Source: Fibrobacterota bacterium (GTDB taxonomy: Bacteria > Fibrobacterota > Fibrobacteria > UBA11236). Taken from it: 64,000 bases of DNA. The notes under the pieces are model-generated. The model was not told the DNA's origin. It searched no databases and saw only the letters and a list, made by a program, of their open reading frames with translations. The translations under genes and the position numbers were made by a program. Every line of letters starts with the position of its first letter. The first letter of the stretch is position 1. This document shows positions 51,417 to 58,753 of the stretch, one piece after another. The stretch is taken from contig JAQBPO010000062.1 of assembly GCA_028287465.1 (NCBI GenBank), forward strand, positions 62,001 through 126,000. The letters are read 5' to 3'.

Positions 51417-54146
51417 ATGACCACACATACCGATTCATCGTCCATCGCGCCGGCCCAGAACGCCGGTTTCGGCATTCCTTCCCTCACCGGCAAGCAGATC
51501 CGGCAGGGTTTCATCGACTTCTTCGCCGGGAAAGGCCACGTCTTCGTGCCTTCCGCGCCCGTCGTGCCGCATGATGATCCCACCCTGCTCTTCACCAATG
51601 CGGGGATGAACCAGTTCAAGTCCGCCCTCCTCGGCGACAACCGCGAGGGATGGAAGCGCGTGGCCAACTCCCAGAAGTGCATCCGAGTGTCGGGAAAACA
51701 CAATGACCTGGACGAAGTGGGCCGCGACACCTATCACCACACCTTTTTCGAAATGCTCGGCAACTGGTCCTTCGGCGACTACTACAAGAAGGACGCCATC
51801 AAGTGGTCCTGGGAGCTGCTGACGGAAGTCTGGAAGCTCCCCAAGGAACGCTTGTTCGTCACCGTCTACAAGAACGACGACGAGGCGGAAAACCTCTGGA
51901 AGACCGAGACGGACATCGCCCATGAACGCATCATGCGCTTCGGGGAAAAATCGAACTTCTGGGAAATGGGCGAGGTCGGACCCTGCGGTCCCTGCACGGA
52001 AATCCATTTCGACATGGGCGATCCGGCCACCCAGGCGGCCACCTTCGCCGATCCCGTCGAAGGCGTCAACGGGACCAATGCCCGCTACATCGAACTCTGG
52101 AACAACGTGTTCATGCAGAGCGAACGGCTCCAGAGCGGGGAGCTCAAGCCCCTGAAGAACCAGAACGTGGACACGGGCATGGGCTTCGAGCGCATCGTCT
52201 CCGTAATCCAGGGTTCCGGCTCCAATTACGAGACCGACGTCTTCCAGCCCATCATCACCCGCATCGCCGAACTCTCCGGGGTCCCCTATTCAAAGGGCCC
52301 GGAAGGGACTCCCCACCGGGTCATGGCCGATCACGTGCGCGCCCTGTCCTTCGCCATAGCGGACGGCGCCACCCCCGGCAATGAAGGCCGCGGGTACGTT
52401 CTGCGCCGCATCCTGCGCCGTGCCTCCCGCTTCGCCCGCAACCTGGGCCAGCGCGAACCCTTCCTGGTCAAGCTGGTGCAGGTCATCGCCGATACCATGG
52501 GCGACGCCTATCCGGAACTCATCCAGCGCCGCAGCTATATCGAACAGGTTATCCGCGCCGAGGAGGATCGCTTCATGCGTACCTTGGACCAGGGCCTGGA
52601 TCGCTTCGCCAGGATCGCGGCCGAGACCAAGGCCAAGAAGGACGCCAACGGGGTTATCGGCGGGGCGGAAGTCTTCCTCCTCTACGATACCTACGGATTC
52701 CCCACCGATCTGACCCGCGTCATCGCGGAAGAGCAGGGCCTGACCATCGACGAGGCCGGTTACTCGAAATACATGGAAGAGCAGCGCGAACGCGCCCGCG
52801 GCGCCGCCAAGTTCGACGGCAGCTTCGCCAGCGACGAGGGCTGGACCATTCTCTCCCCCGCCCTGGACACGGAGTTCATCGGCTATACCACCTTGGTGGC
52901 GGACGTGAACGTGCGCCGCTACCGCGAGGTGGGCGATCAGGTGCTGGTCGTGCTCGACAAGACCCCGTTCTACGCGGAAGCCGGCGGCCAGGTGGGCGAT
53001 ACGGGAACCTTGACCGGGAAGCCGGGTCCAGCCGGAGCGCCCTCGGTGCAGCTGCGCGTGATCGATACGGTCAAGATGTTCGACATGGTTCTGCACAAGT
53101 GCGACCTGTTGGGCGGAGTCCTGAGCCCCGAGACCATGAAAGGCCTGAAGGCGGAAGTGGACAAGGAGAACCGGTTCAAGACGGTGCGGAACCACAGCGC
53201 CACCCATCTCCTGCATTCCGCCTTGCGCGAAGTCCTCGGCGACCACGTTCAGCAGCAGGGTTCCCGCGTCGCGCCGGATTCCCTCCGCTTCGACTTCACC
53301 CATTTCCAGGGAATGACGCCCGAAGAGATCAAGCGGGTGGAATACCGCGTCAACCACGCCATCGAGGAAAACCATTCCATAAGCCATGCCGTCCACGGCA
53401 TCGAAGAAGCCAAGAAGATGGGCGCCATGGCCCTGTTCGGCGAGAAGTACGGGGACAAGGTCCGCGTCATCACCATGGGCGACGTGAGCATGGAACTCTG
53501 CGGCGGCACCCATGCCAACGCCACGGGGGATATCGGATTCCTCAAAATCACCGGCGAAAGCTCCATAGCCGCCGGCGTCCGCCGCATCGAGGCCGTGACC
53601 GGCCTTGGCGCCCTGGAAATGGTCCAGCGCAACTTCAACGCCTTGTCCGATATCGCGAAGGTGTTCAAGGCCAAGCCCGGACAGGAAATCGAGAAGGTGG
53701 TGGAAGCGACGGCCCGCATCAAGGCCCTCGAAAAGGAAGTGCTGGAACTGCGCCAGGCCCAGGCCAGGCTCCAGGCGGCGACCCTGATCGCCGAGCGCGG
53801 CAAGGACATGAACGGGACCATGGTCATCGTTTCCAGGCTCGATGAGAAGTCCTTCCCCAAGGAAACCATAGGCCTCCTGGTGGACGGTCTCGCGGGGCAA
53901 CTGCGCAATGGCGTGGCGGTGCTGACCCAGGTTTCCGGCGACTCCCTCAGCATCTACGCCGTGGCCGGCAAGGAAGCCCAGGCCAAGGTCAAGGCGGGCG
54001 ATTTGATCAAGGCCATCGGCCCCGTGGCCGACGCCAAGGGCGGCGGCAAGCCCGATCGGGCCCAAGCAGGTTCCAAGTCCCCGGACAAGGAGCCGCTGGT
54101 GCTCGCGGAAGCCGGGAAATTCCTCAAGCAAGCCCTGGGGGCATGA
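51417..54146 (+). CDS. alaS: Alanyl-tRNA synthetase
   Basis: AlaRS charges tRNA-Ala. The 909-residue protein has the class II core (FFAGKGHVFVPSAPVV, LFTNAGMNQFK, GDYYKKDAI), the GFERIVSVIQG motif 3 region, the editing domain with HSATHLLHSAL and CGGTHANATGD, and the C-Ala domain to the end with ERGKDMNG and GGGKPDRAQAG (the conserved GGGGR-like turn). The first 25 residues before LTGKQIRQGF are extra. Editing His and Cys residues are intact, so mischarged Ser and Gly should be cleared. The next gene starts inside its stop codon, indicating coupling. alaS here is not beside recA or recX. Confidence 0.97.
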   Translation: MTTHTDSSSIAPAQNAGFGIPSLTGKQIRQGFIDFFAGKGHVFVPSAPVVPHDDPTLLFTNAGMNQFKSALLGDNREGWKRVANSQKCIRVSGKHNDLDEVGRDTYHHTFFEMLGNWSFGDYYKKDAIKWSWELLTEVWKLPKERLFVTVYKNDDEAENLWKTETDIAHERIMRFGEKSNFWEMGEVGPCGPCTEIHFDMGDPATQAATFADPVEGVNGTNARYIELWNNVFMQSERLQSGELKPLKNQNVDTGMGFERIVSVIQGSGSNYETDVFQPIITRIAELSGVPYSKGPEGTPHRVMADHVRALSFAIADGATPGNEGRGYVLRRILRRASRFARNLGQREPFLVKLVQVIADTMGDAYPELIQRRSYIEQVIRAEEDRFMRTLDQGLDRFARIAAETKAKKDANGVIGGAEVFLLYDTYGFPTDLTRVIAEEQGLTIDEAGYSKYMEEQRERARGAAKFDGSFASDEGWTILSPALDTEFIGYTTLVADVNVRRYREVGDQVLVVLDKTPFYAEAGGQVGDTGTLTGKPGPAGAPSVQLRVIDTVKMFDMVLHKCDLLGGVLSPETMKGLKAEVDKENRFKTVRNHSATHLLHSALREVLGDHVQQQGSRVAPDSLRFDFTHFQGMTPEEIKRVEYRVNHAIEENHSISHAVHGIEEAKKMGAMALFGEKYGDKVRVITMGDVSMELCGGTHANATGDIGFLKITGESSIAAGVRRIEAVTGLGALEMVQRNFNALSDIAKVFKAKPGQEIEKVVEATARIKALEKEVLELRQAQARLQAATLIAERGKDMNGTMVIVSRLDEKSFPKETIGLLVDGLAGQLRNGVAVLTQVSGDSLSIYAVAGKEAQAKVKAGDLIKAIGPVADAKGGGKPDRAQAGSKSPDKEPLVLAEAGKFLKQALGA

Positions 54147-54898
54147 TGGCCGTTGGATCGATTGAAACCCGGCTGATCCAGTCCCTGGAAAAGGTCCGTT
54201 CGCTCTTCTTCGTCCTGCTCGATCCGGATTCGGATTCGCCCGACGGGATCATCGAAGCGGGCCTGCGCGCCGCCAAGCATGGCGCGGACGCCTTGCTCCT
54301 GGGCGGTTCCTTCATCGGCAATCCCGCGTTCCAGAAGATCGCCGCCGGCCTGAAAAAGGAAACCCAGATCCCGGTGATCCTTTTCCCGGGCGGTTGCTCC
54401 CATGTCACCCCCGGCCCGGACGCCATCCTTTTCACCACCCTTATCAGCGGCCGCAATCCCCAATACCTCATCGATGAACAGGTCAAGGGCGCGGTCCTGG
54501 TGCGCAGCCTCCGCATGGAAGCCATCCCGACCGCCTATATGCTCATCGAATCCGGCCGCACCACCGCGGTGGAATACATCAGCAATACCCGTCCCATTCC
54601 CGCGGACAAGCCGGCCATCGCCGCCGCCCACGCCATGGCCGCGGAGCTTATGGGACAGCGTTGGATCTATCTCGAAGCCGGTTCCGGCGCCCTGAATGCA
54701 GTGCCCGCCCCCATGGTCAAGATGGTGCGCGCCTCGGTAGGGCTCCATGTCATCGTTGGCGGCGGCATCCGCACCCCCGAGCAGGCCCGGGAGCGCGCCG
54801 AGGCGGGAGCCCATGCCATCGTGGTGGGCAACCATTTCGAGACCAGCAAGGACGGAAGCCTGATCAAGGAGTTCGCCGCAGCCGTCCACGGGGCTTAG
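54143..54898 (+). CDS. Geranylgeranylglyceryl/heptaprenylglyceryl phosphate synthase-like protein
   Basis: A 251-residue TIM-barrel protein of the GGGPS/PcrB family, which joins an isoprenyl diphosphate to glycerol 1-phosphate in archaeal-type ether lipid synthesis. Recognisable parts are FFVLLDPDSDSPD, ADALLLGGSFIG, IPVILFPGGCSHVTPGPDAI in part, WIYLEAGSGA, VIVGGGIRTPEQA and AIVVGNHFE, which bind the phosphate. The sequence is closer in feel to the group II (archaeal/Bacteroidota) enzymes than to PcrB of Bacillus; that is judged by motif only. The ATG at 54143 overlaps the alaS stop; a second ATG is at 54146. No partner G1P dehydrogenase is in the window. Confidence 0.85.
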   Translation: MMAVGSIETRLIQSLEKVRSLFFVLLDPDSDSPDGIIEAGLRAAKHGADALLLGGSFIGNPAFQKIAAGLKKETQIPVILFPGGCSHVTPGPDAILFTTLISGRNPQYLIDEQVKGAVLVRSLRMEAIPTAYMLIESGRTTAVEYISNTRPIPADKPAIAAAHAMAAELMGQRWIYLEAGSGALNAVPAPMVKMVRASVGLHVIVGGGIRTPEQARERAEAGAHAIVVGNHFETSKDGSLIKEFAAAVHGA

Positions 54899-56582: not shown

Positions 56583-57113
56583 TCCGAAACTCCCATGCCT
56601 TCGCCCGTTCCGCTTCCGTGATCACGGTTGGAGAACGCCCGCCGCCGTGGACGCAATGATGCGTTCAGCGACGTTTCCCAATTATAGTACTGACCCGCGG
56701 GGTTACCATGAGGCATCTTCGCCAAAACGCGGATTCCAGCCATCCAATGCGGTTTTCTTACAAGCCTGCCTCCGAAAAGCATGGTCCCGGGAATCCTGCG
56801 CCACATCTCCCAGGGTAGGAAGCGAATGGTCCGGGCGGTGATTGCGCCAAGGACCGAGGGTCCGGCACGCCATTTCCTGGAAGGGTCGAACGGATTTGAC
56901 TCGGATTTTCCCGGGGGGAAGCACCCCTTTGTCCAAAAAATCGCCGGTATGAGGCGGGATTGGGCTTTCCCCGGCCCAATTACATGGCAGTAAACCCCGG
57001 TTTTGGCTATAATTATGGGCTCTTGAGGAACCGGAATTCGGGGCCTTCGGGTTGACCGGAAAGCGGGGCGTTATTAACTTAACCTGTCTAATTTTTTTAG
57101 TAATAGGGCAGAA
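56583..57113. other. Intergenic region between the PAS-AraC gene and rplM
   Basis: About 531 bases without a recognisable gene. On the minus strand TATAAT (56686-56681) lies 100 bases upstream of the AraC gene. On the plus strand a perfect TATAAT at 57008-57013 lies about 100 bases upstream of rplM, with no good -35 box in the 17-base position. The last 50 bases before rplM are AT-rich. No tRNA or sRNA structure was seen. Confidence 0.45.
57008..57013 (+). promoter_or_regulatory. Putative -10 box of the rplM operon
   Basis: A perfect TATAAT about 100 bases before rplM. The -35 position reads TGGCAG, a poor match, so an activator or a different start site may be involved. Confidence 0.4.
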
Positions 57114-57545
57114 ATGAAAACGGTTACGGTGAATCCTACGACCATTTCGACCAAATGGTTCATTATCGATGCGAACGACGTGGTACTCGGCCGCCTTGCG
57201 AGCAAAACCGCCGCCATCCTCATGGGCAAGAACAAGACGGCTTGGTCCCCCAACCAGGATCTCGGCGACCATGTCATCATTATCAACGCGGACAAGGTGG
57301 CCTTGACGGGCAAGAAGCGCGAGACCATGCGCTACTTCAACCACTCCACCCATCCGGGCGGATGGCGCGAACTGTCCGTGGCCCAGGCCCAGGCGATCCG
57401 CCCCGGCTATCCGGTCCGCCACGCGATCCGCGGCATGCTCCCCCATACCATCCTGGGCGAACACATGGCCAAGAAGCTTCACATCTACGGTGGCGAGAGC
57501 CACCCTCACGCGGCCCAAAAGCCCGAGGTGCTGGCCCTCAAGTAG
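57114..57545 (+). CDS. rplM: 50S ribosomal protein L13
   Basis: The 143-residue protein is L13 of the large subunit. WFIIDANDVVLGRLASKTAAIL and GKNKTAWSPNQDLGDHVIIIN (both quoted in parts) are family signatures, with HPGGWRELSVAQA and RGMLPHTILGEHMAKKLHIYGG following. It starts with KTVTVNPTT and ends LALK, with the expected length. AGGG lies upstream of the ATG. It is the first gene of the rplM-rpsI-rpsB-tsf block and precedes rpsI by 27 bases. Confidence 0.97.
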   Translation: MKTVTVNPTTISTKWFIIDANDVVLGRLASKTAAILMGKNKTAWSPNQDLGDHVIIINADKVALTGKKRETMRYFNHSTHPGGWRELSVAQAQAIRPGYPVRHAIRGMLPHTILGEHMAKKLHIYGGESHPHAAQKPEVLALK

Positions 57546-57561
57546 GCCGGCAAGGAATAAC

Positions 57562-57567
57562 AGGAGG
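57562..57567 (+). promoter_or_regulatory. Ribosome binding site that places the rpsI start at ATC
   Basis: A perfect AGGAGG at 57562-57567 is followed, after 5 bases, by ATC at 57573. No ATG, GTG or TTG occurs in this frame between the upstream TAA at 57558 and the conserved S9 N-terminus. Confidence 0.8.
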
Positions 57568-57572
57568 ATATC

Positions 57573-57968
57573 ATCGCAACTCAGGATACCTACCGGGCAA
57601 CCGGCCGTCGCAAAACCGCCATCGCGCGGGTGATTTTGAAGCCCGGTACGGGCAAGCGGACCATCAATGACCGCACCTTCACCGAGTTCTTCGCAAATGC
57701 CATCCGCGAGATGATCGTGGAACAACCCCTGACCATTCTCAACCTCAACAAGCAGTGGGACGTGATCGTCACGTCCAACGGCGGTGGTGTGAATGGAACG
57801 GCCGGCGCGGTCCGTCTGGGCATCGCCCGGGCCCTCGTCGCCTACAAGCCCGAATACCGGGCCGCCATGCGCGAGCATGGACTCATGACGCGCGACTCCC
57901 GCGCCGTGGAACGTAAGAAATACGGCAAGTCCGGCGCACGCCGCAGCTTCCAGTTCTCCAAGCGCTAA
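57573..57968 (+). CDS. rpsI: 30S ribosomal protein S9, apparent ATC start codon
   Basis: The product from 57573 is 131 residues, the usual S9 length: (M)ATQDTYRATGRRKTAIARV, then IND/TFTEFF region, NGGGVNGTAGAVRLGIARAL and the basic tail KYGKSGARRSFQFSKR that reaches the P site. The frame has no standard start: the first is a GTG at 57630, which would delete the invariant TGRRK(T)AIARV strand. The perfect AGGAGG points to the ATC at 57573. Either this gene initiates at a rare ATC, or one base is wrong in the assembly. All other residues are intact, so it is not a pseudogene. It sits between rplM and rpsB as expected. Confidence 0.9.
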   Translation: MATQDTYRATGRRKTAIARVILKPGTGKRTINDRTFTEFFANAIREMIVEQPLTILNLNKQWDVIVTSNGGGVNGTAGAVRLGIARALVAYKPEYRAAMREHGLMTRDSRAVERKKYGKSGARRSFQFSKR

Positions 57969-57994
57969 TAGAGTCAGAAGGATAGAGGATCAGT

Positions 57995-58753
57995 ATGTCA
58001 GTACCCGAAATCAAAGAGATGTTGGAAGCCGGTATCCATTTTGGGCATCTCACCAAGCGGTGGAATCCCAAGATGAAGAAGTTCATTCTCACCGAGAAGA
58101 ACGGGATCTACGTTATCGACCTGTCCAAGACGCAGGAATGCCTCCAGAAGGCGACCGATGCGGTGAAGAAAATCCGCCATTCCGGCAAGTCCATCCTCTT
58201 CGTCGGAACCAAGAAGACGATCAAGGAGTGCATGAAGGAAGAGGCCGTACGTTGCGGCCAATACTACGTGACCGAGCGCTGGCTCGGCGGCATGCTCACC
58301 AATTTCTCCACCGTCAAGAAGTCCATCAAGCGCCTCGAAGAGATCGAGAAGATGGAAACCGACGGGCTCTTCAAGGAAATCACCAAGAAGGAAGTGCTGT
58401 CCCTGAATAAGGAACGCGCCAAGCTCGAAGGCATCTTCAGCGGTATCCGCAATATGAAGACCCTCCCGGGCGCCCTCTTCGTGGTCGATTCCGAGCATGA
58501 GGAAATCGCCGTTCACGAGGCCAACCGTCTCAAGATTCCCGTGTTCGCCATCGTGGACACGAATTCGGATCCGGACAAGGTCGCCTACCCGATTCCCGGC
58601 AACGATGACGCCATCAAGTCCGTGGGCCTCCTGACCCGCGTGTTCTCCGATGCCATCGTCGGCGTCAAGGCCATGACCGTGGAAGATCAGCAGAAGGCCG
58701 CCGCCGCTGCCGCCGCTCCCGCTCTGGCAGAAGTGCTGGAAGGGGCCGAGTAA
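57995..58753 (+). CDS. rpsB: 30S ribosomal protein S2
   Basis: The 252-residue S2 begins SVPEIKEMLEAGIHFGHLTKRWNPKM (quoted in part: EAGIHFGHLTKRWNPKM) and has the core motifs KKFILTEKNGIYVIDLSKT, GTKKTIKECMKEEA, RWLGGMLTNFSTVKKSI and PGALFVVDSEHEEIAVHEA, PVFAIVDTNSDPD. The C-terminus is Ala-rich. AAGGATAGAGGAT precedes the ATG. Its TAA overlaps the tsf start by one base (TAATG), the tight coupling typical of rpsB-tsf. Confidence 0.97.
   Translation: MSVPEIKEMLEAGIHFGHLTKRWNPKMKKFILTEKNGIYVIDLSKTQECLQKATDAVKKIRHSGKSILFVGTKKTIKECMKEEAVRCGQYYVTERWLGGMLTNFSTVKKSIKRLEEIEKMETDGLFKEITKKEVLSLNKERAKLEGIFSGIRNMKTLPGALFVVDSEHEEIAVHEANRLKIPVFAIVDTNSDPDKVAYPIPGNDDAIKSVGLLTRVFSDAIVGVKAMTVEDQQKAAAAAAAPALAEVLEGAE

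Follow-up and report, generated by a model that had tools for sequence, protein, structure and literature searches.

A conserved AUC/AUU start codon on the ribosomal protein S9 gene of Fibrobacteria, paired with a strong Shine-Dalgarno sequence

Comparison of rpsI, the gene for ribosomal protein S9, across the phylum Fibrobacterota strongly supports a real, class-wide and non-canonical start codon, AUC or AUU, on this essential ribosomal protein gene in the class Fibrobacteria. The locus lies in a 64-kb stretch of contig JAQBPO010000062.1 (the window), which we assign to this class; the source assembly is a draft of 5.8 Mb in 100 contigs, 98% complete. The start is conserved, specific to rpsI, coupled to the strength of the Shine-Dalgarno (SD) sequence and accompanied by a normal initiator tRNA. 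It is likely that this weak start, rescued by its SD, attenuates S9 translation and that it is probably sensitive to initiation factor IF3.

The features of the locus are collected in Table 1. Between the in-frame TAA and the S9 core the codons read CAG GAG GAT ATC ATC GCA ACT CAG GAT ACC TAC CGG GCA, followed by TGRRKTAIARV. Codon reading bears out the earlier note, which had found no ATG, GTG, TTG or CTG in this interval, a perfect AGGAGG ahead of ATC 57573, and as the first standard in-frame start a GTG whose use would delete the conserved first strand, TGRRK. The SD and the start codon are separated by ATATC. The rpsI product matches PF00380 above the cut-off and is the one S9 match in the window's genome, with rplM immediately 5', and the gene is therefore regarded as the working copy. 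Further upstream, between alaS and the rplM-rpsI pair, lies an ORF (54143-54898, +) whose product resembles a geranylgeranylglyceryl phosphate synthase.

Table 1. Features of the rpsI locus, in window coordinates
Feature	Position	Strand	Basis or remark
rplM (ribosomal protein L13)	57114..57545	+	ORF, ATG start; upstream partner of rpsI
In-frame TAA, upstream limit of the rpsI frame	57558..57560	+	Sequence and translation
Shine-Dalgarno (SD) sequence AGGAGG	57562..57567	+	5 nt 5' of the start codon
First of the tandem ATC codons; spacer, not the homologous start	57570..57572	+	
rpsI start codon ATC	57573..57575	+	AUC/AUU here in 72/106 genomes of the window's class
rpsI CDS (S9, 131 aa plus stop)	57573..57968	+	
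First standard in-frame start, GTG	57630..57632	+	ORF 57630-57968; S9 fold truncated if used
rpsB (S2), 3' control gene	57995..58753	+	ORF, ATG start

The phylum was sampled with 167 genomes, of which 147 gave an S9 match and 143 a readable rpsI start (110 in a first batch and 33 later). The four unread starts are those of G139, where the core was not found in a short stretch, and of G106, G120 and G135, where the matches were cut or weak. Among the 106 starts read in the window's class, 66 are AUC, 6 AUU and 34 AUG; the AUC/AUU starts span two families and occupy the homologous codon. The window's genus (six genomes) shows AUC five times and AUU once. Starts in the rest of the phylum (n = 37) are UUG, apart from a single GUG, and AUA was never seen among the 143 Fibrobacterota starts. 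The rpsI start of G061 is TTG and was counted as such, and the first batch holds 46 AUC/AUU loci. In a quick-method tree built from L13, S9 and S2, the state of rpsI changed between AUC/AUU and AUG at least five times within the class. The presence of AUG in 34 of the 106 genomes implies that the AUC/AUU start is dispensable in some lineages.

Outgroup phyla were represented by 80 named S9 loci, one of which proved to be Fibrobacterota; three of the other 79 were unreadable. A standard in-frame start is available in all 76 loci read, with an in-frame ATG in 69 (in three of them more than 45 codons upstream) and GTG or TTG alone, among the starts listed within 45 codons, in the remaining 7. As a side observation, the TTG of the 36 genomes from the rest of the phylum (L056-L091) also departs from the ATG usual in other phyla, and in one genome with such a TTG-type rpsI, G091, several further ribosomal protein genes likewise start with TTG.

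The unusual start is confined to rpsI among the genes compared. As a control, 27 genes of the S10-spc-alpha region were read in eight genomes (216 cases), five of which carry an AUC/AUU rpsI (G003, G001, G008, G025 and G018); with rplM and rpsB, 29 genes were covered. The window's own genome stands outside the S10-spc-alpha set because L2 was not found there. By rule, 207 of the 216 cases have a standard start at the conserved N-terminus, and inspection of the printed proteins showed that in each of the nine flagged cases a standard start lies just within the BLAST alignment edge, by a few codons. No AUH start was found in the 27 genes of the eight genomes, and a class-wide laxity in start choice was rejected on these 216 cases. 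The neighbours of rpsI conform as well: rplM starts with ATG in 46/46 genomes of the class with an AUC/AUU rpsI, and rpsB in 28/28; in the other 18 genomes no match to rpsB fell within the stretch.

The AUC/AUU state is coupled to a strong SD. GGAGG or AGGAGG is retained in nearly all AUC/AUU relatives, and the SD duplex energy in the window's genus is -10.3 kcal/mol. The mean energy is -9.5 kcal/mol over 27 unique AUC/AUU sites versus -5.6 over 19 unique AUG sites (Mann-Whitney p 4e-8, for rows that are related by kinship). With strong defined as -8 kcal/mol or lower, 44 of 46 AUC/AUU loci qualify, versus 1 of 27 AUG loci. Across five independent pairs on the tree, SD strength agrees with the start state in three to four and opposes it in none. 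The score is 4:0 plus one tie, or 3:0 plus two ties, at a median p of 0.125, which is not significant because five pairs are too few. G164 is an exception, with an AUG start and yet a strong SD; G027 (L329, absent from the tree) is a further AUG case and carries GGAG rather than GGAGG. At the AUG-type sites of the large genus g4 (G027/L329; G032, G052/L029, L030), the ribosome binding site is rebuilt in a weaker form (GGAG), and the difference is thus more than a C-to-G change of the start.

This co-variation of SD strength and start codon would also be expected if the AUC/AUU start were real but served no regulation, i.e. if it had been fixed by drift and a stronger SD compensated for it, leaving the rate of S9 synthesis normal and constant. 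Such compensation is described for GUG and UUG starts (PMC5622118). Still, we regard this explanation as rather unlikely. AUG is just one base away, but AUC/AUU persists on rpsI over many genera, and the 27 operon genes in eight genomes show none. Moreover, selection for AUG is reported to be strongest in conserved, highly expressed genes (PMC5622118); it is thus expected to be strongest in ribosomal protein genes, which makes a class-wide AUC/AUU start on rpsI unexpected. According to the same source, one of 61,358 ancestral AUG starts became AUU (Belinky et al., PMC5622118).

Initiation at ATC 57573, as proposed in the earlier note, is well supported by the conservation of AUC/AUU, the placement of the SD, the lack of an alternative start and the codon periodicity downstream. 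The homologous start is assigned to 57573 rather than 57570 because relatives read ACC-ATT, CCC-ATC or TCT-ATC; the position of the first tandem ATC is occupied by ACC, CCC, TCT, TAT or GCT. In an alignment of family f3 (24 unique sequences), entropy by codon position 3' of the AUC is 0.44/0.38/0.76, the mark of coding sequence, and 5' of it 0.75, 0.86 and 0.75, i.e. without periodicity; the A and T of the start are invariant in this family. Of the 46 first-batch AUC/AUU loci, 38 have U at position -1 and the other 8 have C. Initiation elsewhere, whether at GTG 57630, further upstream, or through frameshifting or read-through from rplM, is accordingly hard to sustain and considered very unlikely. 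GTG 57630 is what gene callers restricted to ATG, GTG and TTG would pick, but it would cost the protein its TGRRK strand, and in most loci an in-frame stop lies close upstream of the rpsI start. No ATG, GTG or TTG occurs in any frame 3-13 nt past the SD in 46/46 first-batch AUC/AUU loci, and the ATG of the AUG relatives sits at the codon homologous to ATC 57573. In G033, one of the 72 AUC/AUU cases, a TTG is present in frame, but it is located 5' of the SD and lacks an SD of its own; in the first batch the check for standard starts covered the last 36 codons ahead of the S9 core.

A dedicated initiator tRNA with anticodon GAU, or an mRNA edit matching AUC/AUU, would account for the restriction to AUC and AUU, as these two codons, and never AUA, are what a GAU anticodon would read. 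The absence of AUA may, however, merely reflect that changes between C and T are transitions. A search pattern in which the anticodon was left free returned a single initiator tRNA per genome, with anticodon CAT, in 13/13 genomes, AUG-rpsI and AUC-rpsI types alike, and ARAGORN confirmed the CAT initiator in two of the genomes. The pattern could miss a second initiator of divergent sequence, but the explanation as a whole is judged highly improbable. A single-base assembly error, in which an ATG would have been recorded as ATC, was the alternative put forward in the earlier note. Independently assembled genomes from dozens of species refute it, and it retains next to no probability despite the draft state of the 100-contig genome: the comparison of relatives that the note had proposed did not return ATG throughout but ATC (four) or ATT (one) in the other five assemblies of the genus, and most of the class agrees.

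Known modes of autoregulation by ribosomal protein leaders were considered and rejected. Near rpsI (56600-58100), no Rfam leader was matched at E values up to 1, and the fold at the start region is no better than that of shuffled sequences (z 0.24 and -0.11). As to the initiation machinery, IF3 is represented with both domains by PF00707 and PF05198 matches in G000, and the IF3 of the window's genome carries the RGRE motif. G048 and G073 gave more than one IF3_N match per genome, possibly due to a second copy or contamination.

The reading that we favour, a weak, SD-rescued start that attenuates S9 translation, can be outlined as follows. The ordinary fMet initiator tRNA (CAU) would read AUC 57573, or AUU in some relatives, with the third codon base mismatched. 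The strong SD would hold the 30S subunit and position the start codon, so that AUC is accepted often enough, and the weak start would cap S9 output per mRNA. IF3 is reported to reject weak third-base pairs (PMC10158994). By the precedent of infC and sigR, S9 synthesis would be predicted to rise when IF3 discrimination relaxes and to fall under IF3 excess. We infer both the reduced initiation rate and the IF3 sensitivity of rpsI, the latter by analogy with these two genes.

The tail of S9 contacts the P-site tRNA. A feedback in which S9-poor ribosomes initiate more at AUC is attractive for this protein, although the abstract of a bacterial S9-tail study reportedly makes no mention of increased AUU/AUC initiation when the tail is lacking. 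Such a loop is disfavoured, and not relied on here, because mutants of the yeast uS9 tail are described as lowering UUG initiation more than AUG initiation (PMC6344880).

The start codon of infC was compared over 76 loci, 45 of them in the window's class (44 readable) and 31 in other Fibrobacterota (21 readable). In the window's class, infC starts with TTG after an SD in 41 loci, with ATG in two (G057 and G161) and with GTG in one (G045); the infC of the window's own genome (L127) is among those with the UUG pattern, and some infC genes of the class have an ATG without SD a few codons further in. Conversely, the homologous codon is ATT or ATC in 21/21 readable loci outside the class, with no clear SD in G071 by the rule used. 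Ten rest-of-phylum loci gave no motif, one of which (G091) is ATC by separate reading. The two genes are thus reversed, with UUG on infC and AUC/AUU on rpsI in the window's class, versus AUU/AUC on infC and UUG on rpsI in the rest of the phylum. As this reversal may reflect a single evolutionary event, it hints at a functional link but does not prove one. The AUU/AUC starts of infC make it plausible that the phylum uses IF3-type discrimination, and its UUG start in the window's class points to a probable change of IF3 autoregulation in that class. A shift of the IF3-gated start codon from infC to rpsI in this class is raised tentatively, as a possible but doubtful scenario.

The infC gene, with a start of the AUU/AUC/AUA type and autoregulation by IF3 as in E. 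coli, is a close precedent. Like infC, rpsI combines a conserved AUH start, mismatched at the third base with the CAU initiator, with a strong and well-spaced SD on a gene of the translation apparatus. Unlike infC, it encodes a structural ribosomal protein rather than a discriminating factor, so that any feedback would be indirect; and infC itself is UUG in the window's class. In Streptomyces, infC is reported to start with ATC, and IF3 is described as autoregulating infC and as repressing sigR at its GTC start (PMC5472188). As in sigR, a rare start is conserved with an extensive ribosome binding site on a gene other than infC (PMC5472188). However, sigR encodes a stress sigma factor and its IF3 dependence was tested, whereas rpsI, known here from its sequence, is essential and its product needed in ribosome quantities. 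S. aureus infC starts with AUA, and in this species AUU or AUA starts with an extended SD, as on cvfC1 (AUU) and ccpN (AUA), are described as initiating below AUG and reducing reporter output (PMC13009471). The genes cvfC1 and ccpN resemble rpsI in their conserved, non-canonical start and extended SD, but are non-ribosomal and belong to a different phylum. Finally, the pairing of a weak start with a strong SD follows the compensation described by Belinky et al. (PMC5622118), with the difference that their cases are GUG and UUG starts, whereas on rpsI AUC/AUU is maintained across a class. Among the listings and abstract openings covered by a literature search, no paper dealt with non-canonical initiation of rpsI or with S9 starts in Fibrobacter.

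For annotation, the finding means that gene callers limited to ATG, GTG and TTG will truncate S9 in these genomes. The class-wide AUC/AUU start points to selection for weak initiation, and the relatives that switched to AUG provide a natural comparison. If the start codon shifted from infC to rpsI, it would constitute a fidelity-to-ribosome-supply circuit of which no description was found in the literature searched, and the stringency of initiation would be reflected in how much is made of S9, a 30S protein that contacts the P-site initiator tRNA through its tail. If rpsI is IF3-gated, control by IF3 would extend from infC and sigR to ribosome assembly.
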